The translations under genes and the position numbers were made by a program. Shown here in pieces: positions 4,226-16,093 of a stretch of DNA of 64,000 nt (the stretch's first letter is position 1; every line of letters begins with the position of its first letter). A model generated the notes under the pieces. It saw only the letters and a program-made list of their open reading frames with translations, was not told the origin of the DNA and made no database searches. The stretch covers positions 1,178,001 to 1,242,000 of the forward strand of contig NZ_CP047650.1 in assembly GCF_009906855.1 (NCBI RefSeq). The letters run 5' to 3'. Source of the DNA: Xylophilus rhododendri. Lineage in GTDB: Bacteria; Pseudomonadota; Gammaproteobacteria; Burkholderiales; Burkholderiaceae_C.

Positions 4226-6448
4226 ATGCGGACACTTCCTGCGGCCCCTGCCCTGTTCCCACCACCACCGGGTTCGACCCGCGCGGCCACCGGGGCGCTC
4301 GCCGCCCTGCTGCTGTCGGCCTGCGGAGGCGGCGGCCACTCGGCCGCCGCGCCCAACACCATTCCCGCCAACACCACGCAGATCGGCGTCACCGTCTATT
4401 CGGCCAGCGCGCGGGCCGCCGGCACCAGCGCCGACACCCAGGACCTGCTGACCGGCGGCCTGGGCCGCACCGGCCTGGCGGCCGCCACCCCGCCCGCCTA
4501 CGCCAGTGCCACCGCGCCCACCGCCTTCGAGCTGCGGCGCAACGCCATCTACAGCAATTACCGCGGCCTGGTCGACGTGACCGCGGCCGGCGGCTTCGGC
4601 ACCTTCTACGGCCCCAACGTGGATACCGGCGGCACCGCCACCGCCAGCGAGGGCCTGATTCCGGGCCGCGAATACCTGGCCGTGCTGGACGACGGCACCG
4701 GCCGCAAGCGGGTGCCGGTGGCCGTGCAGATCCCGGACAGCTTCAACACCGCCGCGCCCTGCCTGGTGCTCGGGCCGTCTTCGGGCTCGCGCGGGCTCTA
4801 CGGCGCCATCGGCACCTCGGCGGAATGGGGCCTGAAGCACGGCTGCGCCGTCGCCCTGACCGATGCCGGCAAGGGCATCGGCCTGTACGACCTGACGGAC
4901 GACAGCGTGAACCGCATCGACGGCACACGCGCCAGCCGCGCCGCCGCCGGCAGCCTGTCGCATTTCGCCGCCGACATCACCGATGCCGCGCGCGCCGCCT
5001 ACAACGCGCTGCTGCCCAACCGCCTGGCCCTGAAACAGGTGCATTCGCAGCTCAACCCCGAGAAGGACTGGGGCAGCGACACCCTGGCCGCCGCCCGCTA
5101 CGCCTTCTATGCACTCAACGACCGTTTCGGCAACGGCAGCAACACGCTGATCTTCGACCCCAGCAACACCCTGGTGATCGCCGGCTCGGTCTCCAACGGC
5201 GGCGCCGCCGTGCTGCGCGCGGCCGAGCTGGACACGGCCGGCCTGATCGACGGCGTGGTGGCCGGCGAGCCGGTCACCGAGATGCCCACCTCCAGCGGCT
5301 ACGGCATCAGCGTCGGCGGCGTGCCGGTGGCCAATGTCGGCAAGACGCTCGCCGACTTCACCACCTTCGGCAACCTCTACCAGCCCTGCGCCGCCCTGGC
5401 CGCGCCGGCCGCCATGAGCGAGACATCGGTCTTCAACTACCTGGCCTTCTCCTCGCAGACCGCCCGCGCCACGGCACGCTGCGCCGGCCTGGCGGCCAAG
5501 GGCCTGGTCGCCGGGGCCGACACCGCCGCGCAGGCGCTGGACGCCCTCAACAAGCTGCGCAACTACGGCTGGACGCCCGACAGCGACCAGCTGCACAACG
5601 CCCACTACGGCCTGGGCAACGGGCCCATCCTGTCGGCGATGTACCCGCTGAGCTACGGCCGCTTCTCGGTGCTGGACCAGGTGTGCAACACCAGCTTCGC
5701 CCAGGTCGACACCACCGGCAGCCCGGTGCGCGCCAACGCCGCCACGCTGGCCCAGAGCTTCGCCCTGGCCAACGGCACGGCCAACGGCACGCCGGCCTCG
5801 GTGGTCTACAACGACTCGGTGGGCGGTGCCCGGGTGTGGAACCTGGCGACATCGGTCTCGACCGGTACGCAGGATTTCGGGCTGGACAACGCGCTCTGCC
5901 AGCGCGCCCTGGTCACCGGCGTGGACGAGACCGGCGCGCCGCTGACGGCCACCGCCACTTCGACCCGGCCCACCCTGGCCCAGAGCGCCGCCGTGCGCGC
6001 CGGCATGGCCGAGGTGACGGTCACCGGCCGGCTGCGCGCCACGCCCACCCTCATCGTGGCGGGCCGGAACGACACGCTGGTCCCGCTCAACAACAACGCC
6101 CGCGCCTACACCGCCTTCAACAAGACCCTGGAGACCACGGCCAGCCAACTCGGCTACATCGAGGTGACCAACGCCCAGCACTTCGACGGCTTCCTGTCGC
6201 TGAGCGGCTTCGACACCCGCTTCGTGCCGCTGCACGTGTATTTCCTGCGGGCCATGGACGCGATGTACGCCAGGCTGCGCAGCGGCACCGCCCTGCCGCC
6301 CAGCCAGGTGGTGCGCGCCACGCCACGCGGCGGCTCGCCCGGCGCGGCGCCCGCGCTGACGGCGGCCAACCTGCCGCCGATCAGCGCCGCGCCCTTGGCG
6401 GCCGACCAGATCGGGTTCAGCGGCACATCGCTGGCCGTGCCGCAGTAG
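4226..6448 (+). CDS. D-(-)-3-hydroxybutyrate oligomer hydrolase (lipoprotein)
   Basis: A 740-residue protein matching the 3-hydroxybutyrate-oligomer hydrolase family, which cleaves short 3HB oligomers released from poly-3-hydroxybutyrate into monomers. Family landmarks include SRGLYGAIGTSAEWGLKHGC (about residues 192-211) and the serine-hydrolase box GSVSNGG with predicted nucleophile S323; NAQHFDGF near residue 655 could supply the histidine. The N-terminus ends in LLLSACGGGG, a lipobox with C33, so the enzyme is probably secreted and lipid-anchored. The gene stands alone, 226 bp from the divergent SDR. Its presence fits a PHB-using betaproteobacterium. Exact activity is inferred from family. 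Confidence 0.88.
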   Translation: MRTLPAAPALFPPPPGSTRAATGALAALLLSACGGGGHSAAAPNTIPANTTQIGVTVYSASARAAGTSADTQDLLTGGLGRTGLAAATPPAYASATAPTAFELRRNAIYSNYRGLVDVTAAGGFGTFYGPNVDTGGTATASEGLIPGREYLAVLDDGTGRKRVPVAVQIPDSFNTAAPCLVLGPSSGSRGLYGAIGTSAEWGLKHGCAVALTDAGKGIGLYDLTDDSVNRIDGTRASRAAAGSLSHFAADITDAARAAYNALLPNRLALKQVHSQLNPEKDWGSDTLAAARYAFYALNDRFGNGSNTLIFDPSNTLVIAGSVSNGGAAVLRAAELDTAGLIDGVVAGEPVTEMPTSSGYGISVGGVPVANVGKTLADFTTFGNLYQPCAALAAPAAMSETSVFNYLAFSSQTARATARCAGLAAKGLVAGADTAAQALDALNKLRNYGWTPDSDQLHNAHYGLGNGPILSAMYPLSYGRFSVLDQVCNTSFAQVDTTGSPVRANAATLAQSFALANGTANGTPASVVYNDSVGGARVWNLATSVSTGTQDFGLDNALCQRALVTGVDETGAPLTATATSTRPTLAQSAAVRAGMAEVTVTGRLRATPTLIVAGRNDTLVPLNNNARAYTAFNKTLETTASQLGYIEVTNAQHFDGFLSLSGFDTRFVPLHVYFLRAMDAMYARLRSGTALPPSQVVRATPRGGSPGAAPALTAANLPPISAAPLAADQIGFSGTSLAVPQ

Positions 6449-6486: not shown

Positions 6487-8031
6487 TCAGCCGGCCAGGA
6501 AACGATCCGCCGTGCGCAGCGACAGCGCCATGATGGTCAGCGCCGGGTTGGCGGCCATGGCGCTCGGAAACACCGAGTTGTCGCAGAGCCAGAGATTGCC
6601 GATGTCGAAGCTGCGGCCATCCGCATCGACCACGGCGCTGCCGCCGTCGGTCCCCATGCGGCAGGTGCCGATGGTGTGGGCGGTGCGCGGCAGCACCAGG
6701 GTCTGGCTGGCGCCGGCGGCCTCGACGATCTGCCGCATCACCCTCGTCGCATGCCGGTCGATAGCCTGTTCGTTGGCGCCGGCAGTGAAGCTGACGACCG
6801 CCTTGGGCATGCCGAAGTCATCGCATTCGGCGGACAGCTCCAGCCGGTTGCCGTCCGATGGCAGGCATTCGGCGTTGATGCCCACGCCGGACATGAAACG
6901 ATAGCCCTCGATGGCCTCCACCAGCGGCCGGCCCCACAGCCCGGCGCCGCGGGCGATCGTGGTCGCCAGGGTGACGGGCATCACCCCCAGGCTCTGGATC
7001 AGGTAGCCGCCCGCGAAGTCGGCATCCCGGGGCCGCAGCTGGTCCTCGGTCAGCAGCGAGGACGGATAGCCCCGGTGCGAGCGCATCTCGGCATCGAAGC
7101 GGCCCCAGACCTGGGTGGCGCCATGGGCCATGAAGTTGCGGCCGACCTGGCCACTGCTGTTGGCCAGGCCCGTGTGCAGCAAGAGGCGTGGTGTCTCGAT
7201 GCCGCCCGCGCAGAGAAACAGCGCGGCGCAGCGCTGCCGGTGCTCCACGCCGCGATGGCGGTAGACGACGGCATTGACCCGGCCGGCGGCGTCGCGTTCG
7301 ATGGCGTGGACCCGGCATTCGGCGCGGATCTCGGCGCCGTGCGACACCGCCAGCGGCAGGTAGGTCGTGTCCATGCTGGCCTTGGCGGCATTGCGGCAGC
7401 CCTGGTGGCAGGAGCCGCAGTTGGCGCAGGCCTGGCGCAGGCCGCCACCTTCCTGCTGCCAGTCCTGGGAGACCAGCGCCGCCGGTGCGTCCGCGGTGGT
7501 GATGCCGAGTGCTGCGCAGCCGCGCGCCATCATGTCCGCCGAGGCATTGCGGCGAGCAGGGGGCAAGGGGTATCGGCGTGCGGGGTCCCAGGGGTAAAGG
7601 GCCGGCCCGGAGACACCGAGGAAACGCTCCACCTGTTCGATGTAGCCGGTGAGTTCGGCATGGGCGATCGGCCAGTCCTGCCCCAGCCCGCTCAAGGAGC
7701 GCAGCGTCAGGTCGCGTGGATCGGGCCGTGGTGTGAAGGCGCCCCAGTGCAGGGTCGATCCGCCCACGCCGATGCCGCTGTTGTTCGGGCCGAAGGCGGT
7801 GGGGGTGTCGCCGCCGCTCAGGCGTTCTTCCATCCAGTTGATGTCGGTGCCCTCGGTCTCGTCGGGCGTGTGCTGGTCCGGCTCCCAATGACGCCCGGCT
7901 TCCAGGGCCACCACCCGCAGGCCGCGCGCGGCCAGCCGGGCGAGCAGCGGCGCGCCGCCGGCACCGGTGCCGATCACGACCGCATCGACGATCTCGCTTT
8001 CGCCATAACGGCGCATGGCGTCGAGCTTCAT
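6487..8031 (-). CDS. GMC/gluconate 2-dehydrogenase-type FAD oxidoreductase
   Basis: 514 residues. An FAD-binding Rossmann fold opens the protein (VVIGTGAGGAPLLARLAARG, residues 18-37), followed by GIGVGGSTLHWGAF (87-99) and the C-terminal GMC region with HTIGTCRMG and NPALTIMALSLRTADRF. A cysteine cluster at C202, C205, C208 and C212 (CANCGSCHQGC) suggests an iron-sulfur centre, as in membrane-bound FAD sugar and alcohol dehydrogenases. Its start overlaps the stop of the upstream hydrolase/subunit-3 fusion by 4 nt (ATGA), so the two are translationally coupled and probably form one complex. No cytochrome c subunit gene is nearby. Oxidation of an alcohol or sugar is expected; the substrate is unknown. 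Confidence 0.88.
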   Translation of the reverse strand: MKLDAMRRYGESEIVDAVVIGTGAGGAPLLARLAARGLRVVALEAGRHWEPDQHTPDETEGTDINWMEERLSGGDTPTAFGPNNSGIGVGGSTLHWGAFTPRPDPRDLTLRSLSGLGQDWPIAHAELTGYIEQVERFLGVSGPALYPWDPARRYPLPPARRNASADMMARGCAALGITTADAPAALVSQDWQQEGGGLRQACANCGSCHQGCRNAAKASMDTTYLPLAVSHGAEIRAECRVHAIERDAAGRVNAVVYRHRGVEHRQRCAALFLCAGGIETPRLLLHTGLANSSGQVGRNFMAHGATQVWGRFDAEMRSHRGYPSSLLTEDQLRPRDADFAGGYLIQSLGVMPVTLATTIARGAGLWGRPLVEAIEGYRFMSGVGINAECLPSDGNRLELSAECDDFGMPKAVVSFTAGANEQAIDRHATRVMRQIVEAAGASQTLVLPRTAHTIGTCRMGTDGGSAVVDADGRSFDIGNLWLCDNSVFPSAMAANPALTIMALSLRTADRFLAG

Positions 8032-9431
8032 CGCGGCATCTCCGCCAGCGCTTCCCAGGGCTCACGTTCGCCCGCGGCGAGCAGCTCGAACCCCTGTTTT
8101 CGGACACCGTCACCGCCGTTGGCGAAGCCGTCGAAACCCATGCGGGCCATGGTCGCCGGGTGCGCCACCCAGATGCGCACCAGGTCGGCGCGCAGGTCCT
8201 CGAACCAGTGCTGCATCTGCTGCGCGGACAGGGTCGCGAGGCCGAACCCGCCGCTTTCCAGCTGGCTCAGCCTGGCTTGCCGCTCGGGTTCGGGCAGATC
8301 GCCAAAGCCGTCCAGGCCGTCCAGGGCCAGGGCATAGGCCGTTCGATCCGGCGGCATGTCCGCGAAACGCCATCCGTCGCCCTGGCCGGTGGCGAGTTGG
8401 GCATCGATGCGGGCCGCCAGGTCGATCGCGGGAGCGGTCTGCGGAAGCACGCGGTCGGCCAGCGCCCGCAAGGTCTTCAGCTGCGCTGGCGACAGCACGC
8501 CGGGCAGGTAGTCGGGATCGTCGGCGATGGCGCGGGTCGCCAGCGCGGCACGCATGCGCCGGCTGACACGGGCGGAGCCGACGAGGCGCACGAACTCCTC
8601 CGGCATGGCCGGCGAGATCCCCGCGCGCTGGTGCCAGAAGCGTCCGATGTGCCGGGCCACCTCGCGCGGCCGCTCCAGGTGCAGCAGGTGAGCGGCATTG
8701 TTTTCCACCACGATGCTGGCGCGCGGATAGACAAGCGCATTGGTCGCGTGTTGCCCCGCTTCGCCCAGTTCGCCGTCGGCGCTGCCGACGATGATCAGCG
8801 CCGGCAGCTTCAGCGTGCCGACGTCGATCGACCAGTCCTCCCGGCTGCCGCGCTCCAGCCAGGCCAGCCAGGCCTGCCGCGAGCTGCGTTCGAGGTCGTC
8901 GATGGTCAGGCGCTGTGCCACCGGGTCGAGCGGGGCGGCGACATTCGCAGCCACGAAGGCCTGGGCGGCGGCGGCGTCCAGCGGTCCACCGGCCGCCCAG
9001 CCGATCATCTCGCGGCGCTTGTCCTCGTCCATCGGCTCCGGCGAGGGCGGCGAGCCAGCCAGCAGCACCACGCCCGCCAGCCCGAACAGGCCGGGCTCGC
9101 CGGCCAGGGCCCGGGCGGCGACGATGGAGGCGATCTTGCCGCCCATGCTGTGGCCCACGAGGAGCCAGCGTGCCGCGGCGCGTTGCCTGACGATGGCCGC
9201 CACCTGGTCGGCCATGTCGGCCACGCCCAGGTCGGTGGCGTCCCGGGCCTCGCCGAAACCCGGCAGGTCGATGGGCGCGGCTTCGAATTCGGCGTCGAGG
9301 GCGGCGATCACGCCGTCCCAGGCGCGTGCGCTGCCGCCCAGGCCGTGGAGCATGAACAGGACGGGCCTGTCGCCCGTGTTCGATCGAGGAAGCTGGCGCG
9401 GGGATAAAAAGGTGTCAGGGCAATTCGTCAT
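8028..9431 (-). CDS. Alpha/beta hydrolase fused to gluconate 2-dehydrogenase subunit 3-like domain
   Basis: A 467-residue two-domain protein. Residues about 20-270 are an alpha/beta hydrolase: oxyanion-loop HGLGGSARAW, nucleophile elbow GHSMGG with S95, and a late histidine in NAAHLLHLERP. Residues about 305-460 resemble the small gluconate-2-dehydrogenase subunit 3 (LSPAQLKTLRALADRVLPQ, then LSAQQMQHWFEDLRADLVRI). That subunit normally carries its own Tat signal to export the flavoprotein; here a hydrolase replaces it and no signal peptide is evident. The gene is coupled by ATGA overlap to the GMC dehydrogenase. A hydrolase that feeds or processes the dehydrogenase substrate is a reasonable inference. 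The fusion is in frame without any stop. Confidence 0.82.
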   Translation of the reverse strand: MTNCPDTFLSPRQLPRSNTGDRPVLFMLHGLGGSARAWDGVIAALDAEFEAAPIDLPGFGEARDATDLGVADMADQVAAIVRQRAAARWLLVGHSMGGKIASIVAARALAGEPGLFGLAGVVLLAGSPPSPEPMDEDKRREMIGWAAGGPLDAAAAQAFVAANVAAPLDPVAQRLTIDDLERSSRQAWLAWLERGSREDWSIDVGTLKLPALIIVGSADGELGEAGQHATNALVYPRASIVVENNAAHLLHLERPREVARHIGRFWHQRAGISPAMPEEFVRLVGSARVSRRMRAALATRAIADDPDYLPGVLSPAQLKTLRALADRVLPQTAPAIDLAARIDAQLATGQGDGWRFADMPPDRTAYALALDGLDGFGDLPEPERQARLSQLESGGFGLATLSAQQMQHWFEDLRADLVRIWVAHPATMARMGFDGFANGGDGVRKQGFELLAAGEREPWEALAEMPR

Positions 9432-9547: not shown

Positions 9548-9916
9548 TCAGGCCCCGACCAGCTTCTTGAACGAGCCCAGCACCGCCGCGCCGTTGAAGG
9601 GCTTGACGATCCAGCCCTTGATGCCGGCCGCCTTGCCGCGCTCCTTCATGGCGGGCGAGTTCTCGGTGGTCAGCATCACGATGTTGACCGCGGCATTGCC
9701 CAGCTCGCCGCGCACCTTCTCGGCCATGGTCAGGCCGTCCATATTGGGCATGTTCACGTCGCAGACCACCAGCTTCACGGCGGGATCGGCCTTGAGCTTG
9801 GCCAGGCCGTCGCGGCCGTCCACCGCGTAGGAAACGCTCAGGCCGTTGTTCTGCAGGAAAGTGCCGACTTCGTTACGGACGGTGCTGGAGTCGTCGACGA
9901 CAAGGATCTGGGCCAT
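9548..9916 (-). CDS. CheY-like single-domain response regulator
   Basis: A 122-residue stand-alone receiver domain. The acidic pair D8-D9 (LVVDDSS), the phospho-acceptor D53 (VVCDVNMPNMDG), the switch Thr in MLTTENS and the lysine in GWIVKPF are all present, so it should be phosphorylatable. There is no output domain, as in CheY. It is the last gene of a five-gene minus-strand chemosensory-like operon and lies 25 bp after the CheX-like gene. Its likely phosphodonor is the H463 Hpt domain of the kinase at 12232-14583. The downstream target is unknown, because no flagellar or pilus gene is nearby. Confidence 0.92.
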   Translation of the reverse strand: MAQILVVDDSSTVRNEVGTFLQNNGLSVSYAVDGRDGLAKLKADPAVKLVVCDVNMPNMDGLTMAEKVRGELGNAAVNIVMLTTENSPAMKERGKAAGIKGWIVKPFNGAAVLGSFKKLVGA

Positions 9917-9941
9917 TTTTTTGAAAAAGACAGTGAGGGGT

Positions 9942-10922
9942 TCAGAAGAGTTCGAGATCGCCGCAAGCCACCAGGCTCTCGGCGGTGAGGTCGTTTTCGC
10001 GGAAGGCGTCGGGCGACCAGTTCAGGCTGAAGACGAAACGCAGGTAGACCACCACCGGCGCGAAGGCCGCGTCGTCCGGCGCATGCAGGGTGCAGCGCAG
10101 GCACAGCTGCGGATCGGTCGAGCCGAAGGAGATGTAGCGGTGCAGGTGGTTGATGACGATGGGCACCTGCGAGCGCGCGGCCTGCAGCGCCTGCTGCTGT
10201 TCGTAGCGGTTCTTGAAGGCGCCCCAGATCAGGTTGGTCAGCTCGCCGAGCAGGCCGTTGAGGCCGCGGAAATCGTCGGCGTCGGCGGCGGCGAGGTAGG
10301 TGCGGTCGGTGCGCACCAGGCGCTCCAGGGCGGCCTCCTCGGTCTGCAGGGTCATGAAGCCGCGGCACCAGTCGCTCTCGATCGGGATCAGCGAAAACAC
10401 CTCGCCGAAGATCAGGCGGTCGCGCACGATGTAGGGCGGGTCGATCTCCAGCCGCATGCCCTTGAACTGGCTGGCGAAGGCATTACGCGCGATCTCGGCG
10501 ATGCCGCGCACCAGCGCGCCGGGATAGGCCAGCGTGAAGATGGACTGCTGCACCGCCGGCACCAGGGTGTGCAGGGTTTCCAGGGTGTAGAGGGCGGCGA
10601 AGCAGGCGCGCTCGCCGGCCGGCATTTCGTCGGCCGAAGCCTGGCTTTCGGTGCGCAGGAAGAGGGGCAGCTCGGGGCGCAGCGCGTGGATGCGCTGGCC
10701 CAAAGTGCGGCCGGCGTGGGCGTCCTCGCCCATCTTCTCGGGCAGGAAGATGGCGCCCAGGTCGATGTTGGAGGCCAGCACCGACAGGATGTTCTCGGCC
10801 AGCACCTTGTGGGCCTGCAGCTGGTTGAGCTGGCAGAAGGCGCCGATGGCCTCGCGGTGGGCGGGGCTGGGTTCCAGCACCAGCACCTTGCTGGTGAGGG
10901 TGTTCGGGGTGTCGCTCGACAT
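9942..10922 (-). CDS. Degenerate receiver fused to CheX/CheC-like phosphatase domain
   Basis: 326 residues. The N-terminal segment, about 10-130, has the receiver shape (SKVLVLEPSPAHREAIGAFC), but the acidic pair is EP and the phospho-acceptor strand reads AIFLPEKM, so it is a pseudo-receiver. The C-terminal segment, about 135-320, resembles CheC/CheX-type CheY-P phosphatases: GELTNLIWGAFKNRY gives the E-x-x-N catalytic pair E227 and N230. It lies 30 bp after the other CheX-like gene and before CheY. It probably dephosphorylates or tunes the neighbouring CheY. The assignment rests on motif and context; overall similarity to characterised CheX is weak. Confidence 0.68.
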   Translation of the reverse strand: MSSDTPNTLTSKVLVLEPSPAHREAIGAFCQLNQLQAHKVLAENILSVLASNIDLGAIFLPEKMGEDAHAGRTLGQRIHALRPELPLFLRTESQASADEMPAGERACFAALYTLETLHTLVPAVQQSIFTLAYPGALVRGIAEIARNAFASQFKGMRLEIDPPYIVRDRLIFGEVFSLIPIESDWCRGFMTLQTEEAALERLVRTDRTYLAAADADDFRGLNGLLGELTNLIWGAFKNRYEQQQALQAARSQVPIVINHLHRYISFGSTDPQLCLRCTLHAPDDAAFAPVVVYLRFVFSLNWSPDAFRENDLTAESLVACGDLELF

Positions 10923-10952
10923 GCTTGGAATGAAGGGAAGGAAAGCGGGGGT

Positions 10953-11504
10953 TCAGAAGAATTCGAGTTCGCCGGCGACTTCCGGCTGCGCCTCGGGCCA
11001 CCAGTCGAAATCCATCTCGCGGCGGGCATCGGCGCAGAGCGTGGCCAGCACCCGGGTGCCGCCCAGCTCCACCCGGAAATGCCGCAGGTGCTGGTGCGCC
11101 AGCCCCTGCACATAGCCAGCGCTGCGGCTGTCGATGATGTGCGGGGTGGACATGCCGGTCTGCTGGTAGAAGCGGCCGATCTCGCGGTTGACGGTGCCGC
11201 AGCACATATTGGCGCTCTCGCAGACCGAGTCGCGCAGGGCCTGCTCGGACTCGTCGCCCGGCGTCAGGCGGCCGACCTGCTCCAGGTAGTCGCGGGTGGC
11301 GCGGTCGCGCGGCAGGTACATGGCGATCACCAGGCGGAAGGTGTGCGAGGCCAGCATCAGCACCACCATGTAGGCGCCGGCCGGCGGCACCAGGCTGTCG
11401 ACCGGCTCGACCTGCACCGTGGCGCCGGGCGGCGCGGGCAAGGCGTTCTGCAGGCCCAGGGACACCATGCGGTCCAGGCTGTCGCGGGCTGAGGTGCTGA
11501 TCAT
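10953..11504 (-). CDS. CheX/CheC-like chemotaxis phosphatase
   Basis: A 183-residue protein whose centre reads CESANMCCGTVNREIGRFYQ: the CheC/CheX signature E-x-x-N (E96, N99) followed by a conserved glycine. Further on comes a segment of the type STPHIIDSRSAGYVQG, which in the family precedes the second half of the fold. There is no signal peptide or membrane segment. Its start overlaps the end of the mini-MCP gene by 4 nt, and the second CheX-like gene follows after 30 bp. A phosphatase for the cluster's CheY is the best guess. Two such proteins beside one CheY is unusual. Confidence 0.68.
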   Translation of the reverse strand: MISTSARDSLDRMVSLGLQNALPAPPGATVQVEPVDSLVPPAGAYMVVLMLASHTFRLVIAMYLPRDRATRDYLEQVGRLTPGDESEQALRDSVCESANMCCGTVNREIGRFYQQTGMSTPHIIDSRSAGYVQGLAHQHLRHFRVELGGTRVLATLCADARREMDFDWWPEAQPEVAGELEFF

Positions 11505-12235
11505 GCGGTCTCGGCCGGTGCCGCCAGCAATTCCATGCTCTTGCGGTTGGTCAGCTCCAGGCCGCGCACCGCGCCGATGATCATGCGGCCGCTGGCCTGC
11601 ATGTCCTGGAAGGTGGCGGTGGTGATCAGGTCGTTCTGGTAGAGGGCGCTGCGGTAGTCGGCCGACAGCGCCTCGGCGCGCGCCGACAGCTCGCGCATCT
11701 CGGTGGCCACCACGCCGAAGCCGCGGCCCAGCGGGCCGGCATGCGCCGCCTCGATCGAGGCGTTGAGGCCCACGATCACCATCTGCCGCACGATCTGCGC
11801 GAAATCGTCGTTCTTGGAATGCATCTGGCGGTTGTGGTCCAGCAGCTGCTTCATGTCGGCATGCCAGCGGTCGAAGGTCATCTCCACGCCTTGCAGCTCT
11901 TCCAGCGAGGACGACAGCGTGCCGGCCTGGCGCAGGGCATTGCCGCGGCTGTTGCCCAGCTGGTCGAGCAGGGACTGGAGTTCCTCGAACTCGCTGCGCA
12001 TGCGGGTCCAGCCGGCCTGCAGGTCCAGGCTGCGCTGCTGGGACAGCTCCAGTTCTGCCTGCATCCGGGTGTCCACCACCTCGGTCTCGGCGCGGACCTG
12101 CATCCGCGCCTGGTCGTCGGCCAGCGTCTGGGCGGCCTGCAGGGCCCGCGCCTGGCGCCGCTGGCGCAGCAGCAGGGGCAGCAGGATCAGCGCGCCGAGC
12201 AGCAGCCCGGCGCAGAACGGCAGGGCGGCCATCAT
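11501..12235 (-). CDS. Minimal membrane-anchored MCP-like signalling protein
   Basis: 244 residues. One N-terminal membrane helix (ALPFCAGLLLGALILLPLLL) is followed immediately by a long coiled coil and then the methyl-accepting-protein tip, about residues 145-190 (VGLNASIEAAHAGPLGRGFG, continuing VVATEMRELS), matching the family's ALNAAIEAARAGE-GRGFAVVA pattern. There is no periplasmic sensor, no HAMP domain, and the signalling hairpin is much shorter than in normal MCPs. The start overlaps the kinase stop by 4 nt (ATGA) and its own end overlaps the CheX-like start by 4 nt. It may scaffold or modulate the adjacent membrane kinase rather than sense ligand itself. Confidence 0.75.
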   Translation of the reverse strand: MMAALPFCAGLLLGALILLPLLLRQRRQARALQAAQTLADDQARMQVRAETEVVDTRMQAELELSQQRSLDLQAGWTRMRSEFEELQSLLDQLGNSRGNALRQAGTLSSSLEELQGVEMTFDRWHADMKQLLDHNRQMHSKNDDFAQIVRQMVIVGLNASIEAAHAGPLGRGFGVVATEMRELSARAEALSADYRSALYQNDLITTATFQDMQASGRMIIGAVRGLELTNRKSMELLAAPAETA

Positions 12236-14583
12236 GCCGCGACCGCCTTCAGCACACGGCTGCGGATGGCCGCCCGGGCGGGCAGCGTCACCAGCAAGGC
12301 GAAAGGCCGGCTGGCATCGCCCGGGCGGCCGTGCAGCGCAATGGCGATGCTGCCGCCGTCGGACTCCACGAAGCCGCGCACGGCATCCATGCCGACCCCG
12401 CGGCCGGAGACATCGGTGACCGAGGCGGCCGTGGAGAAACCGGCGGCGAAGATCAGCTCGGCGGCTTCCTCGTCGTTCACCGAAGCGGCGTCGGCGATCA
12501 GGCCGCGCTGCACCGCGCGTTCGCGGATGGCGGCCAGGTTCAGGCCCTTGCCGTCGTCCGACAGCGTCAGCAGCAGGCGTTCCGCGTCCAGTTCGGCATG
12601 CAGGCGGATGCTGCCGGCGGCAGGCTTGCCATGGGCGATGCGTTCCAGCGCGGCTTCGATGCCATGGTCCATCGAGTTGCGGAACATGTGCATGAAGGCA
12701 TTACGCAGCGGGCCGGCGAACTGGGTGTGGATACGCAGGCCGTGGTCGTCGATGGCCAGCTGCGGCGGCTCCTTGCCCAGCTCGTGCGCCAGGGCGGGCA
12801 GCGAATCGGTCACGCCCTGCAGCAGCTGGGCCAGGCGTTCGGTGCCGGCGGCGCGCAGGGTCTCGCGCACCTCGTGCACCGCATCGCCCAGGGCCGGCTG
12901 GCCGGCGGCTTCGCCGCTGTCCAGGCGTTCCAGCATGGCCTGCACATCGTGGCGGGCGACCATCACGAACTTCTCGGCATCGCCGCGCCGGCCGGGGCCG
13001 GTGCGGCCCAGCTTCACCGCGTTGATCTGGGTGTATTCCTCCAGCACCGAGCGCACGGCGGCGATGTCCAGCAGCAGCTCCTCGGTGGACCACTGGGCCT
13101 GGCCGCTGCGCAGCGCGTCGTAATGCTGCTCGCTGTGATGCACCACGTCGGTCAGCTGGCGCAGGCCGTAGGTGCGGGCATTGCCCTTGATGGTGTGCAT
13201 GTTGCGGAACAGCAGCTTGACCGTGTCGCCGCGCTCGTGCGCCTGGGCCCGGTGGGCATGGTCGATGGCGGCTTCGTTCTCGGCCAGGAAGCTGGTCGAG
13301 CCTTCGATGAAGGCATGGAACTTCTCGTGCTGCACCGCCAGGATCTCGCCGATGATTTCCAGCTCGCGCTTCTGCGCGCTGGCCGCGCGCGCCAGGGCCC
13401 GCAGCTCGGTCACGTCGCGCAGGCAGAGCATCAGGCGCTGGATGTTGCCGTGTTCGTCGGTGATCGGCGCCCAGCTCAGGTCCAGGATCTTGCGGCGGCC
13501 GTCGGCCATGGCCAGACTGACCTCGGCCGGCAGCAGGTGGGCGTTGAACTCGAAGTTCATCTCGTCCTCGCCGATGCAGGCCTGCAGCGCCGCCTCGATC
13601 TGCGAGAGCGCGTCGGCGCCCAGTTCGGTCTGCTCGAACACCAGGGTCATCACCGGGCGGCGGGCGATGTCTTCGGTCTCCAGGATGGCGCGCAGGTGGT
13701 CCGAATACTCGGGATGCACCAGGCCTTCGGCCTCCACCGTCAGGATGCCCTGCGGGATGTACTGCAGCATGGCGTGGATGTCGGCCGCCTTCTGCTTGAC
13801 CAGGGCGGTGCTCTCCTCGATCTTCTCGACCATGGCGTTGAAGGCCAGCATGGAGCGGCCGATCTCGTCACGGCGCGTCACCGACAGGCGGTGGGTGAAG
13901 TCCTGGCTGGTGGCGATCTCGGTCATCTTGCCTTCCATCTCGGCGATGGGAAACACGATCTGGCGATACAGCAGCCAGCCGATCACGCCCAGGCCCAGCA
14001 CGGCCAGCAGGCTGATCGCGGTGAGGGTGGCGCTGGTGCTGGTCAGGCGCTGGTTGAGGCTGGCGATGGCGGCATCCTTGCTGCGGCGCTTCTCCACCTG
14101 CACCGCCTCGATCATCTGGCCCTGCTCGCGCAGGTACTGCTCCACCGTCGCGCCCATGTTGGCCTCGGCCATCTCCTTCTGGCCGGCGAGCTTGAACTTG
14201 GCGGTGTCGTTGATCGAGTCGAAGTAGTTGCGCAGGCTTTCCTGGGCTTCCTTGATCAGGCCGCGCTGGGCATCGCTGTCGGCCTGCTGCAGCTGGTCGG
14301 CGAAGAGCTTCTGCAGCACCTCTTTCTTGCCGTTGAGTTCGCCGAGCAGCTGCTGGGTGGTGTCGGCATCGGGCGCCGCCACCAGGCCCAGGGCGGCGAT
14401 CTGCACTTCCTGCAGCCGCACCATGAGTTCGGTGGACTTGAGGGTGCTCGGCACGACCTGTTCGGTGACCACCCGCACTTCGGCGGAGTTGCTGCGGGAC
14501 TGGTAGACGGCGTAGCCGCCGATCAGGGCGAGGGCCCCGAAGACGAGGGCGATGAGCAGGATGATGCGCTGGCGGATATTCAT
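12232..14583 (-). CDS. Membrane-bound CheA-like histidine kinase with Hpt domain
   Basis: 783 residues. Order: transmembrane helix (about 8-28), periplasmic four-helix-bundle sensor (about 30-180, 4HB_MCP-like), second helix (about 186-207), HAMP (about 208-262), PAS-like domain (about 268-395), Hpt domain with phospho-histidine H463 (RNMHTIKGNARTYGL), and a CheA-type ATPase (about 600-770) with N-box FRNSMDHGIE, DDGKGLN (675-681) and GRGVGMD. The protein ends just after the ATPase: there is no CheW-like P5 domain, which canonical CheA needs for receptor coupling. It thus combines receptor and CheA functions in one chain. It is the first gene of the operon and is coupled by ATGA overlap to the mini-MCP. 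The signal is unknown. Confidence 0.85.
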   Translation of the reverse strand: MNIRQRIILLIALVFGALALIGGYAVYQSRSNSAEVRVVTEQVVPSTLKSTELMVRLQEVQIAALGLVAAPDADTTQQLLGELNGKKEVLQKLFADQLQQADSDAQRGLIKEAQESLRNYFDSINDTAKFKLAGQKEMAEANMGATVEQYLREQGQMIEAVQVEKRRSKDAAIASLNQRLTSTSATLTAISLLAVLGLGVIGWLLYRQIVFPIAEMEGKMTEIATSQDFTHRLSVTRRDEIGRSMLAFNAMVEKIEESTALVKQKAADIHAMLQYIPQGILTVEAEGLVHPEYSDHLRAILETEDIARRPVMTLVFEQTELGADALSQIEAALQACIGEDEMNFEFNAHLLPAEVSLAMADGRRKILDLSWAPITDEHGNIQRLMLCLRDVTELRALARAASAQKRELEIIGEILAVQHEKFHAFIEGSTSFLAENEAAIDHAHRAQAHERGDTVKLLFRNMHTIKGNARTYGLRQLTDVVHHSEQHYDALRSGQAQWSTEELLLDIAAVRSVLEEYTQINAVKLGRTGPGRRGDAEKFVMVARHDVQAMLERLDSGEAAGQPALGDAVHEVRETLRAAGTERLAQLLQGVTDSLPALAHELGKEPPQLAIDDHGLRIHTQFAGPLRNAFMHMFRNSMDHGIEAALERIAHGKPAAGSIRLHAELDAERLLLTLSDDGKGLNLAAIRERAVQRGLIADAASVNDEEAAELIFAAGFSTAASVTDVSGRGVGMDAVRGFVESDGGSIAIALHGRPGDASRPFALLVTLPARAAIRSRVLKAVAA

Positions 14584-14646
14584 GGCGGGACAATCGTGGA
14601 GCCGGGCGCCCGGGTGGGTCCGGGCGTGGCGCGATTGTTCAAGCCC

Positions 14647-14671
14647 AAAAAGTCGGCCTCATTACCGACTT
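14647..14671 (-). terminator. Rho-independent terminator after the DadA-like gene
   Basis: Read on the minus strand, the stem AAGTCGG / CCGACTT with an 8-nt loop runs into a five-T tract that continues from the last stem bases. It lies between the stop of the DadA-like oxidase (14716) and the start of the CheA-like kinase (14583). This position would separate the two minus-strand transcription units. The stem is only 7 bp, so strength is uncertain. Confidence 0.55.
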
Positions 14672-14715
14672 GTAAATCGGGATTTCCCTAGGCCGCCAGC
14701 CTCACGCTCCGCTGC

Positions 14716-15993
14716 TCAAAAAGCATCGGCCAGCCGGCGTGCGGTGCCGAAAGCCAGCGTCAGGCCGAGCGCGCCATGGCCGACGTTGAGGAAGAGGTTT
14801 TCGACGCCGCCGGACCGGCCGACGATGGGCAGCGAGGTCGGCGTGGCCGGCCGCAGCCCCGCCCAGGGCACGGCGGCGCCGATGTCCACCGCGCCGCCGA
14901 AGGCCTCCTGCGTGCAGGCCTGGAGCTGTTCGATGCGGCGCGGATCGACGGCGCCGTCCCGCGCGCCGATCTCCACGAAACCGGCCACCCGCAGGCGGTC
15001 GCCGATGCGGGCATAGACCACCTTGCGTTTGGCATCGGTCACGCTGACCGAGGGCACGGCCGCCGGGTCCCGCACCGGCACGGTGATGCTGTAGCCCTTC
15101 AGGGGATAGACCGGCACCCGCAGTCCAGCGCTGGCCGCCAGGGCGGCGCTGCCGGCGCCGCCGGCCAGCACCAGCGCATCCACCGGGCGATCGCCCGCCG
15201 AGCTGAGCAGGCGCGACACCCGCGCGCCTTCGCGGCGCAGGCCATGCACCGTCACGCCGTATTCGAAGACCACGCCGCGGGAACGCAGCACCTCTTCGGT
15301 GTTGCGGCACAAGGCCAGGCCATCGATGGCGCATTCGTCGGGCGTGTAGATCGATCCGGCCACCGCACCGCGGAACGAAGCCAGTGCCGGCTCGTGGGCC
15401 AGGAATCCATCGCCGGGCAGGGCCGATTGCAAAGGCCCGTGCGGCGCCTGCAGCTCGGCCTGGCGGCGGCCCGCGTCGAACGAAGACTGCGTGGCGTACA
15501 GCACCAGTTTGCCGCTGCGCGAGAAGGACAGCGCCTCGGCCGAGGCGCCGGCGATCCATTGCTCCGTCTCCTGACGGCTCAACGCGCCCAGCGCCAGCAG
15601 CTCCAGGGTGGAGCGCTGTGCGACCGGGGCGCTGCAGGCACGCAGGAACTCCCACATCCAGCGCCATTGCCGCACATCGGCCCGGGGCGTGATGTGCAGG
15701 GGGCCGTGGCGGCTCAACATCAGGCCCGGCACGTCGAAGGGCAGGCCGGGCTGCGCCAGCGGCGCCACATAGCCGTAGCTCAGCTGGCAGCCATTGCCGC
15801 CGCTGGCGCCCTGCCCGGCGGCAGCGGCCCGGTCGATGACCGTGACCTGGTGGCCGGCGCGGCTCAGGGCGGCGGCCGAGGCCAGGCCGACGATGCCGGC
15901 GCCGATGACCGTCACCTGCCGGGGCCTGGCGGAGGCAGTGGTGGCGGACCAGTAGTCGGCGGTCGGCGGCGCCGAATCCGGGAAGCTCGTCAT
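14716..15993 (-). CDS. DadA-like FAD-dependent D-amino-acid dehydrogenase/oxidase
   Basis: 425 residues from the ATG at 15993; an in-frame start 45 bp upstream would add an unconserved Ala/Arg-rich tail. The FAD motif VTVIGAGIVGLASAAALSRA is near the N-terminus, and GGNGCQLSYGYVAPLAQPG follows, typical of the DadA group (small subunit-like D-amino-acid dehydrogenases of the DAO superfamily). The C-terminal WAGLRPATPTSLPIVG and NVGHGALGLTLAFGTARRLA are family landmarks. It oxidises an amino acid or amine with FAD and would pass electrons to the quinone pool. It lies about 100 bp downstream of a LysR gene on the same strand, so co-transcription or control by that regulator is likely. A probable terminator follows. 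Confidence 0.85.
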   Translation of the reverse strand: MTSFPDSAPPTADYWSATTASARPRQVTVIGAGIVGLASAAALSRAGHQVTVIDRAAAAGQGASGGNGCQLSYGYVAPLAQPGLPFDVPGLMLSRHGPLHITPRADVRQWRWMWEFLRACSAPVAQRSTLELLALGALSRQETEQWIAGASAEALSFSRSGKLVLYATQSSFDAGRRQAELQAPHGPLQSALPGDGFLAHEPALASFRGAVAGSIYTPDECAIDGLALCRNTEEVLRSRGVVFEYGVTVHGLRREGARVSRLLSSAGDRPVDALVLAGGAGSAALAASAGLRVPVYPLKGYSITVPVRDPAAVPSVSVTDAKRKVVYARIGDRLRVAGFVEIGARDGAVDPRRIEQLQACTQEAFGGAVDIGAAVPWAGLRPATPTSLPIVGRSGGVENLFLNVGHGALGLTLAFGTARRLADAF

Positions 15994-16093
15994 GGCGCGT
16001 GCGGCTCGTGCGGTGGATGCGGCCCCATGGCCGAGCACCGCAGTATTGGGGCTGGGCGGCCCGGGCGCTACTGAAGAAAAGCGGGTCGACCAT

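Follow-up and report, generated by a model that had tools for sequence, protein, structure and literature searches.

Does a compact set of chemotaxis-like genes with no coupling protein of its own work alone, or does it act on ordinary flagellar chemotaxis? The question is raised by a locus of Xylophilus rhododendri (GCF_009906855.1), which lies in a stretch of 64,000 nucleotides, hereafter the window, at positions 1,178,001-1,242,000 of the 5.85 Mb contig NZ_CP047650.1. Five minus-strand open reading frames (ORFs) are confirmed by the ORF list at 9548-14583 of the window, and all features of these five genes given below lie on that strand. They encode a membrane kinase (kin), a small receptor-like protein (mini-MCP, gene mcp), two CheX-fold proteins (chx1 and chx2) and a CheY. 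An earlier note on this DNA had read them as an undescribed, self-contained receptor-kinase phosphorelay with double phosphatase control. We find that the five genes are a real, conserved signalling module of rearranged chemotaxis parts. In addition, we lean, slightly, towards the view that a short peptide, the "ELF tail" (G-[DE]-[ILV]-[DE]-[LF]-F, at or near the C-terminus and sometimes repeated), is an unrecognised docking code in Beta- and Gammaproteobacteria. This code would bring CheD, CheX, CheZ-like proteins, diguanylate cyclases and some receptors to one chemosensory partner. The operon would then be a side module lacking the P5 domain, with a membrane sensor kinase, that acts on flagellar chemotaxis through the code and its receptor tip.

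Relatives were collected by comparing the HAMP-to-Hpt region of the kinase with genome contigs; 487 pattern matches were obtained, 434 were confirmed by tblastn, and the best 80 were kept. Most of the genera among these 80 loci presumably belong to Burkholderiales or Neisseriales, while a few carry odd names, such as Pantoea (L029) and Akkermansia (L053). The locus set (L009-L095) comprised 87 entries, 85 after the duplicates L016 and L017 were dropped, and 75 of them, including the window's own locus, have at least 4 kb beyond the kinase. The genes for the kinase, mini-MCP, chx1 and CheY occur together in 73 of the 75, so that the co-occurrence proposed for the set is borne out. Counted singly, kin is present in 75 loci, cheY in 74, mcp and chx1 in 73 each, and chx2 in 41. 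The window's order, kin-mcp-chx1-chx2-cheY, is found in 32 loci and kin-mcp-chx1-cheY in 28. Rarer orders are kin-chx2-cheY-mcp-chx1 (6), kin-cheY-mcp-chx1 (5) and mcp-chx1-chx2-cheY-kin (2); one incomplete locus has kin alone (L048) and one has kin-chx2-cheY (L057). Thus, chx2 is optional, and the "double phosphatase control" claimed earlier is not a general feature.

The family sample comprised 150 genomes, that of X. rhododendri included, and a genome counted as a carrier if its kinase match reached E 1e-60. Seven carriers were found, again including X. rhododendri, which is a lower bound with six kinase candidates scored per genome. The mini-MCP, chx1 and cheY genes adjoin the kinase in all seven and chx2 in four. 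In the class-wide sample of 369 genomes (kinase threshold E 1e-20), there were matches in five, the own genome included. Two of them, from two other families of the class (L206 and L207), have the complete set, arranged kin-mcp-chx1-chx2-cheY and with the tail on each CheX protein; the remaining matches are one genome with two long kinases and neither mini-MCP nor chx genes nearby, and one weak relative. The module is found mostly in Betaproteobacteria, plus these two other families.

The arrangement within the loci is informative about which products belong together. By stop-to-stop distance, chx1 lies directly 3′ of the mini-MCP gene in all 77 loci holding both, the kinase gene is directly 5′ of the mini-MCP gene in 64 of 77, and in 73 of 78 loci the nearest of the five genes upstream of cheY is a chx gene. 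Bare chx2-cheY pairs, with the same tail on chx2 and with no chx1 or mini-MCP gene nearby, are present in nine family genomes free of kinase matches (L132-L140), and one genome without a kinase match has chx2 alone (L141). The two adjacencies and the bare pairs therefore point to two stable units, one pairing the receptor tip with a phosphatase and the other a phosphatase with CheY. The earlier pairing of receptor and kinase does not agree with this pattern, in which the mini-MCP travels with chx1 rather than with the kinase; the comparison suggests an array-anchored phosphatase.

The kinase (12232..14583) has the architecture first read from the letters: a 4HB sensor, HAMP, a PAS-like region, Hpt and a CheA-type HATPase. 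Its 4HB_MCP_1, HAMP, Hpt (PF01627) and HATPase_c (PF02518) matches are above the Pfam cut-offs, the PAS match is weak, and two hydrophobic stretches are read, from sequence alone, as transmembrane segments. His463 (codon 13195..13197) is the predicted phosphorylated histidine of Hpt; it is invariant in a six-row kinase alignment, as is the Hpt motif HTIKGNARTYG. NCBIfam CheA models align over the ATPase with scores far under their cut-offs. The absence of a CheW/P5 domain, also proposed earlier, holds throughout: PF01584 was not found by Pfam in the window kinase or in any of 10 family kinases scanned, nor among the precomputed domains of 120 listed homologues. The protein extends just 32 residues past the ATPase match, which leaves no room for a P5 domain. 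Sensors differ among the 10 kinases scanned. Most have 4HB with HAMP, with 4HB under the cut-off in some; 7TMR-DISM was matched in two (just above the cut-off in one and below it in the other) and PAS in one, and no sensor was recognised in one. Separately, the kinase match at L015:7523-9871 is split over two reading frames, from an assembly error or a broken gene. Two kinase relatives of about 1,090 residues in one genome (L208 and L209) have no mini-MCP or chx gene nearby, and that of L208 carries GAF and HAMP domains.

The mini-MCP (11501..12235) consists of an N-terminal hydrophobic stretch, read as a transmembrane segment, a short coiled coil and an MCP tip. The MCP signal domain PF00015 is above the Pfam cut-off, and no sensor family reaches its cut-off in the 244 residues. 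The hairpin tip (residues 149-186, 11678..11791) was compared over the 120 listed homologues in what we take to be Tsr numbering. L380, N381 and E385 are each conserved in 120 of 120, R388 in 108, V398 as V or I in 120, and E402 in 119; in the window's protein, position 388 is His. The tip appears suited to a CheW- or P5-like partner, which no gene of the operon encodes.

The two CheX-type proteins described earlier are likewise supported. The CheX fold of both was borne out by structure prediction and comparison, and chx1 scores under and chx2 over the Pfam CheX cut-off. The product of chx1 (10953..11504) carries the ExxN pair E96/N99, invariant in 32 aligned rows; that of chx2 (9942..10922) consists of a degenerate receiver (residues 9-132) fused to the CheX fold (residues 130-302), with E227/N230 invariant in 28 rows. 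Glu62 of chx2 (10737..10739) is the likely position of the phospho-accepting Asp, as set from the end of predicted strand beta3, and is E in 26 of the 28 rows. The CheY (9548..9916) is confirmed as a single receiver domain with D53, a full CheY as noted before.

Both CheX proteins end in the same peptide, G-[ED]-[LIM]-[ED]-[LFM]-F, in 60 of 60 aligned rows, which were picked from 77 chx1 (32 rows) and 45 chx2 (28 rows) sequences. In the window, chx1 ends in GELEFF and a stop (10953..10973) and chx2 in GDLELF and a stop (9942..9962); residues 171-183 of chx1 are in a low-confidence part of the predicted structure. Among the chx1 rows, which go down to 26% identity with the window copy, the tail varies no more than ExxN does. 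In larger alignments the chx1 consensus is GELE.F, with each named residue in at least 95%, and G, L and F of the chx2 tail are each conserved in at least 95%. At the DNA level, the strict pattern occurs at two places in the own genome, exactly the ends of chx1 and chx2, and a shorter pattern gave no further places there. With one position relaxed, the CheD of the flagellar cluster ends in GGSVDLF (L098:11965-12687, ~1.752 Mb), and a short CheZ-like protein encoded before cheY-cheA, which has no chemotaxis Pfam match, ends in AGSIELF (L098:16679-17179, ~1.757 Mb).

Of the 150 family genomes, 29 contain the strict pattern, at 33 places in total; the reversed pattern occurs at 3. One place ends in TGG, with no stop. 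ORF reading assigned the other 32 to 11 operon chx genes, 10 chx2 genes outside operons, 6 GGDEF, 3 CheD (one a C-terminal piece only) and 2 CheZ-like proteins, the last label resting on the motif D-x-x-x-Q. Pfam, run on 7 of the 21 non-operon proteins, gave CheX for 2, GGDEF for 2, CheD for 1 and no family for the 2 CheZ-like proteins. Two GGDEF genes ending in GDIELF (L144 and L146) lie near very large kinase ORFs of 1,682 and 2,030 residues with a ChpA-like look. Among the 30 best-placed CheD loci of carriers, [IV][DE]LF stands at or one residue from the C-terminus in 12 and inside the last 50 residues in 18, and one CheD has three tail copies in its last 70 residues. Outside these 30, Formivibrio CheD has variants of the tail. 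The CheD proteins of Burkholderia-type clusters (L158, L160, L164, L169-L171, L174 and L185) have two or three [IV]ELF copies in their C-terminal tails. In the class sample, 29 tail loci were fetched. Apart from 4 that end in TGG and 4 very short ORFs, there are 21 proteins, namely 14 CheZ-like proteins, 3 CheD, 1 CheX, 1 GGDEF and 2 receptors (L219 and L236). Here Pfam was run on 10 of the 21, and the CheZ-like label rests on QF-x-D-x-x-x-Q; an MCP signalling domain precedes the CheZ-like segment in 3 of 5 CheZ-like proteins scanned.

What could such a tail bind? Chemoreceptors carry a CheR-binding pentapeptide, xWxxF, and the ELF tail might be a variant of it, with Ile, Leu or Val for Trp, that tethers proteins to methylation enzymes. 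The shape and terminal position are similar, and receptors of two che clusters end in DDWEEF and ADWESF (L150 and L151). We nevertheless consider this improbable: not one of the 60 aligned CheX tails has Trp at that position, the copies in CheD are often internal, and we know of no methylation substrates among CheX and GGDEF proteins.

A stronger competitor, though still one we hold to be less probable than its opposite, is that the tail does not dock to CheY but anchors proteins to a general polar or array hub, such as a FimV/HubP-type landmark, CheW or CheA, so that CheX would share a localisation signal with CheD, CheZ-like and GGDEF proteins and receptors. The tail is indeed found on proteins with unrelated catalytic parts, including the diguanylate cyclases and receptors above, and in Burkholderia-type CheD the last 70 residues hold as many as three copies. 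Against a hub stands the adjacency of tail-bearing phosphatase genes to cheY, seen in the 73 of 78 loci, in the nine chx2-cheY pairs free of the other genes and in the CheZ-like gene before cheY-cheA in the own genome. This adjacency speaks for a CheY-type receiver, and the occurrence of the tail on receptors and cyclases for a hub; the partner is perhaps a CheY, and a CheY-type receiver is our leading guess. The C-terminus of CheZ, presumably its CheY-binding peptide, offers a likeness as a Phe-ending C-terminal peptide on a CheY phosphatase. It reads ...DDLL[EA]SLGF in the same clusters, whereas the tail here is G-x-[ILV]-[DE]-[LFM]-F.

The chemotaxis equipment of the carriers bears on where the module acts. 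The own genome has seven CheW-domain places, all outside the window, as the earlier note implied. One che cluster, the flagellar one, lies at ~1.751-1.757 Mb, FliM being encoded at 1.762 Mb; the second is at ~1.252-1.260 Mb, and what we read as a Chp-like locus is at ~2.138-2.148 Mb. About 17 kb past the end of the window, in the second che cluster and directly upstream of its cheY, lies a gene for a 387-residue protein (1,259,299-1,260,462; L100:15299-16462) with an MCP tip and a CheZ-like segment, QFQDRVSQ, which ends in EEITFF. Other genomes of the class also encode proteins that combine an MCP tip and a CheZ-like segment with a related tail, a precedent for joining receptor tip and phosphatase in one unit. 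For the carrier tests, 50 of the best 80 loci were chosen and 49 genomes were searched (L032 was left out). FliM was found in 48 of 49, CheW in 49 of 49 and CheD in 48 of 49, and, of 50 carriers with the own genome counted in, 29 have a PilT-family match at E 1e-120. In the family sample, FliM is present in 7 of 7 carriers and 103 of 143 non-carriers; these non-carriers give FliM a background count, and the figures for CheW, CheD and PilT come from carriers alone. The module is found almost only in flagellated bacteria. With PilT matched in just over half of the carriers, type IV pili do not appear to be a required partner, and the flagellar side is the likelier output.

Since the CheX tails are common to other chemotaxis proteins and almost all carriers are flagellated, the module probably works with ordinary chemotaxis and not alone. 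We favour an accessory chemosensory kinase-phosphatase module that feeds into or trims flagellar chemotaxis, a reading to which we give an even chance. The kinase, with its own sensor, CheA-type Hpt and ATPase and no P5, has its sensor swapped between lineages (4HB-HAMP, 7TMR-DISM-like or PAS). It would phosphorylate D53 of the operon CheY through H463, and chx1, together with chx2 where present, would dephosphorylate CheY-P, an activity to which fold and ExxN point. The degenerate receiver of chx2 may regulate or place chx2. The likeliest role of the mini-MCP is to tether the phosphatase to CheW/CheA arrays, and not to signal to the kinase of the operon, because its canonical hairpin tip is kept, it is sensorless, and chx1 is always directly 3′. 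The tail common to CheD and CheZ-like proteins would act as a docking peptide, and the output would fall on the flagellar motor or its adaptation, as co-occurrence with FliM and CheW suggests.

Several observations weigh against this reading. The activities of the kinase, CheX proteins and CheY are predicted ones. At residue 373 of the mini-MCP tip, 92 of the 120 listed homologues have Arg and Tsr has Phe, and array packing may therefore differ. One carrier, a metagenome bin (G190), lacks FliM, another (G188) lacks CheD, and one of the 49 (L057) shows just kinase, chx2 and cheY at its locus. The pooled FliM comparison (55 of 56 carriers against 103 of 143 non-carriers, Fisher p ~8e-6) joins unmatched samples and ignores kinship, and the seven family carriers alone give p 0.19. 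Outside the 30 CheD loci, two Silvimonas CheD genes have no motif. The class sample has the tail pattern at 105 places in 74 genomes against 32 for the reversed pattern, and therefore a real background. The ordinary CheZ of the same clusters ends differently, and the tails on the receptors L219 and L236 fit poorly with CheY docking. Finally, there is no conserved output gene beside the operon: no cluster of neighbouring genes recurs in more than 27 of the 75 loci. The presumed promoter gap (14584..14715) separates the kinase gene from the next ORF upstream (14716-16038). A search for a sigma-28-like site, with one loose consensus and longest-ORF starts, gave none in 85 upstream regions, the window's gap included, and there is therefore no sign of flagellar regulon control.

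These last two results agree with the self-contained phosphorelay of the earlier note, in which CheY-P would bind an effector encoded elsewhere, with a non-flagellar output such as biofilm, a transcription factor or a surface response. The operon CheYs also form a separate group in a quick tree without support values, and the window's CheY shares 64-69% identity with the CheYs of chx2-cheY pairs; its identity to the two CheYs encoded in che clusters of its own genome is 38 and 43%. A single-domain regulator with a non-motor target exists in FlmD, which acts via SoxR in Comamonas, according to the part of that report consulted (PMC8880074). Self-containment is at odds, however, with the presence of CheW in all and FliM in nearly all carriers searched, with a canonical MCP tip kept although the operon encodes no P5 partner, and with tails common to the CheD and CheZ-like proteins of the flagellar cluster. 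We therefore regard it as unlikely, and the accessory module remains the favoured reading.

Two ORFs beyond the operon are of separate note. An ORF at 8028-9431 fuses an alpha/beta-hydrolase to a gluconate 2-dehydrogenase subunit 3-like domain and overlaps a GMC oxidoreductase (6487-8031), and 4226-6448 encodes a 3HB-oligomer hydrolase (3HBOH, E 1.5e-279).

If the accessory-module reading is true, many genomes may hold a chemosensory input that bypasses receptor-CheW-P5 coupling: 434 genome stretches encode a relative of the kinase region, and the gene content around it was read for the best 80 of them. The receptor tip with phosphatase would be an unusual way of bringing dephosphorylation to an array. 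The shared tail would provide a handle on the placing of phosphatases, deamidase and cyclic di-GMP enzymes in proteobacterial arrays.

Among the matches listed in a literature search, there was no description of the operon or of the tail, in line with the earlier view that the system is undescribed. Canonical CheA also has an Hpt histidine and a CheA-type HATPase; it differs from the window kinase in its CheW-like C-terminal P5 domain and in having no sensor of its own, where the window kinase carries 4HB and HAMP. In the sections of Berry et al. 2023 (PMC10782961) used here, a CheW domain is present in 100% of surveyed CheA, and CheA is findable by HATPase plus CheW; kinases without P5 therefore fall outside that survey. 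With the canonical CheA-CheW-MCP pathways treated in those sections (F1-F17, Tfp and ACF), the operon has in common Hpt, the CheA-type ATPase, an MCP tip, CheY and a CheX-type protein. In contrast, its sensor and HAMP are fused to the kinase, the P5/CheW domain is absent, the receptor tip is separate and sensorless, and the operon has no CheR, CheB or CheW. MiST 3.0, in the portion consulted (PMC6943060), lists pathway classes and MAC proteins (MAC1/MAC2 profile). MCP chemoreceptors share with the mini-MCP the signalling hairpin tip, but have the sensor domain that it lacks.

Pil-Chp and Flm systems (Tfp class) are similar in that Flm occurs in a comamonad and uses single-domain regulators, but Flm, as far as the consulted parts of its reports go (PMC6391922, PMC8880074), relies on a CheA-like kinase of the Tfp class together with a CheW-like adaptor and a chemoreceptor, unlike the operon. 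Pil-Chp identity was rejected, as a ChpA-type kinase needs a CheW/P5 domain; the own genome has its separate Chp-like locus, and 21 of 50 carriers have no PilT match. The CheX/CheC phosphatases (Thermotoga CheX, 1XKO; Borrelia CheX-CheY, 3HZH) have the same fold and ExxN as chx1 and chx2. They differ in that chx1 is divergent beyond the Pfam cut-off, chx2 has an added degenerate receiver, and both end in the shared tail. The CheC-CheD-CheY feedback of Bacillus subtilis, in the parts of the account used (PMC3513319), also joins a CheC-type protein and CheD in one adaptation network, whereas in the lineage of X. rhododendri CheD and CheX have a common peptide tail.

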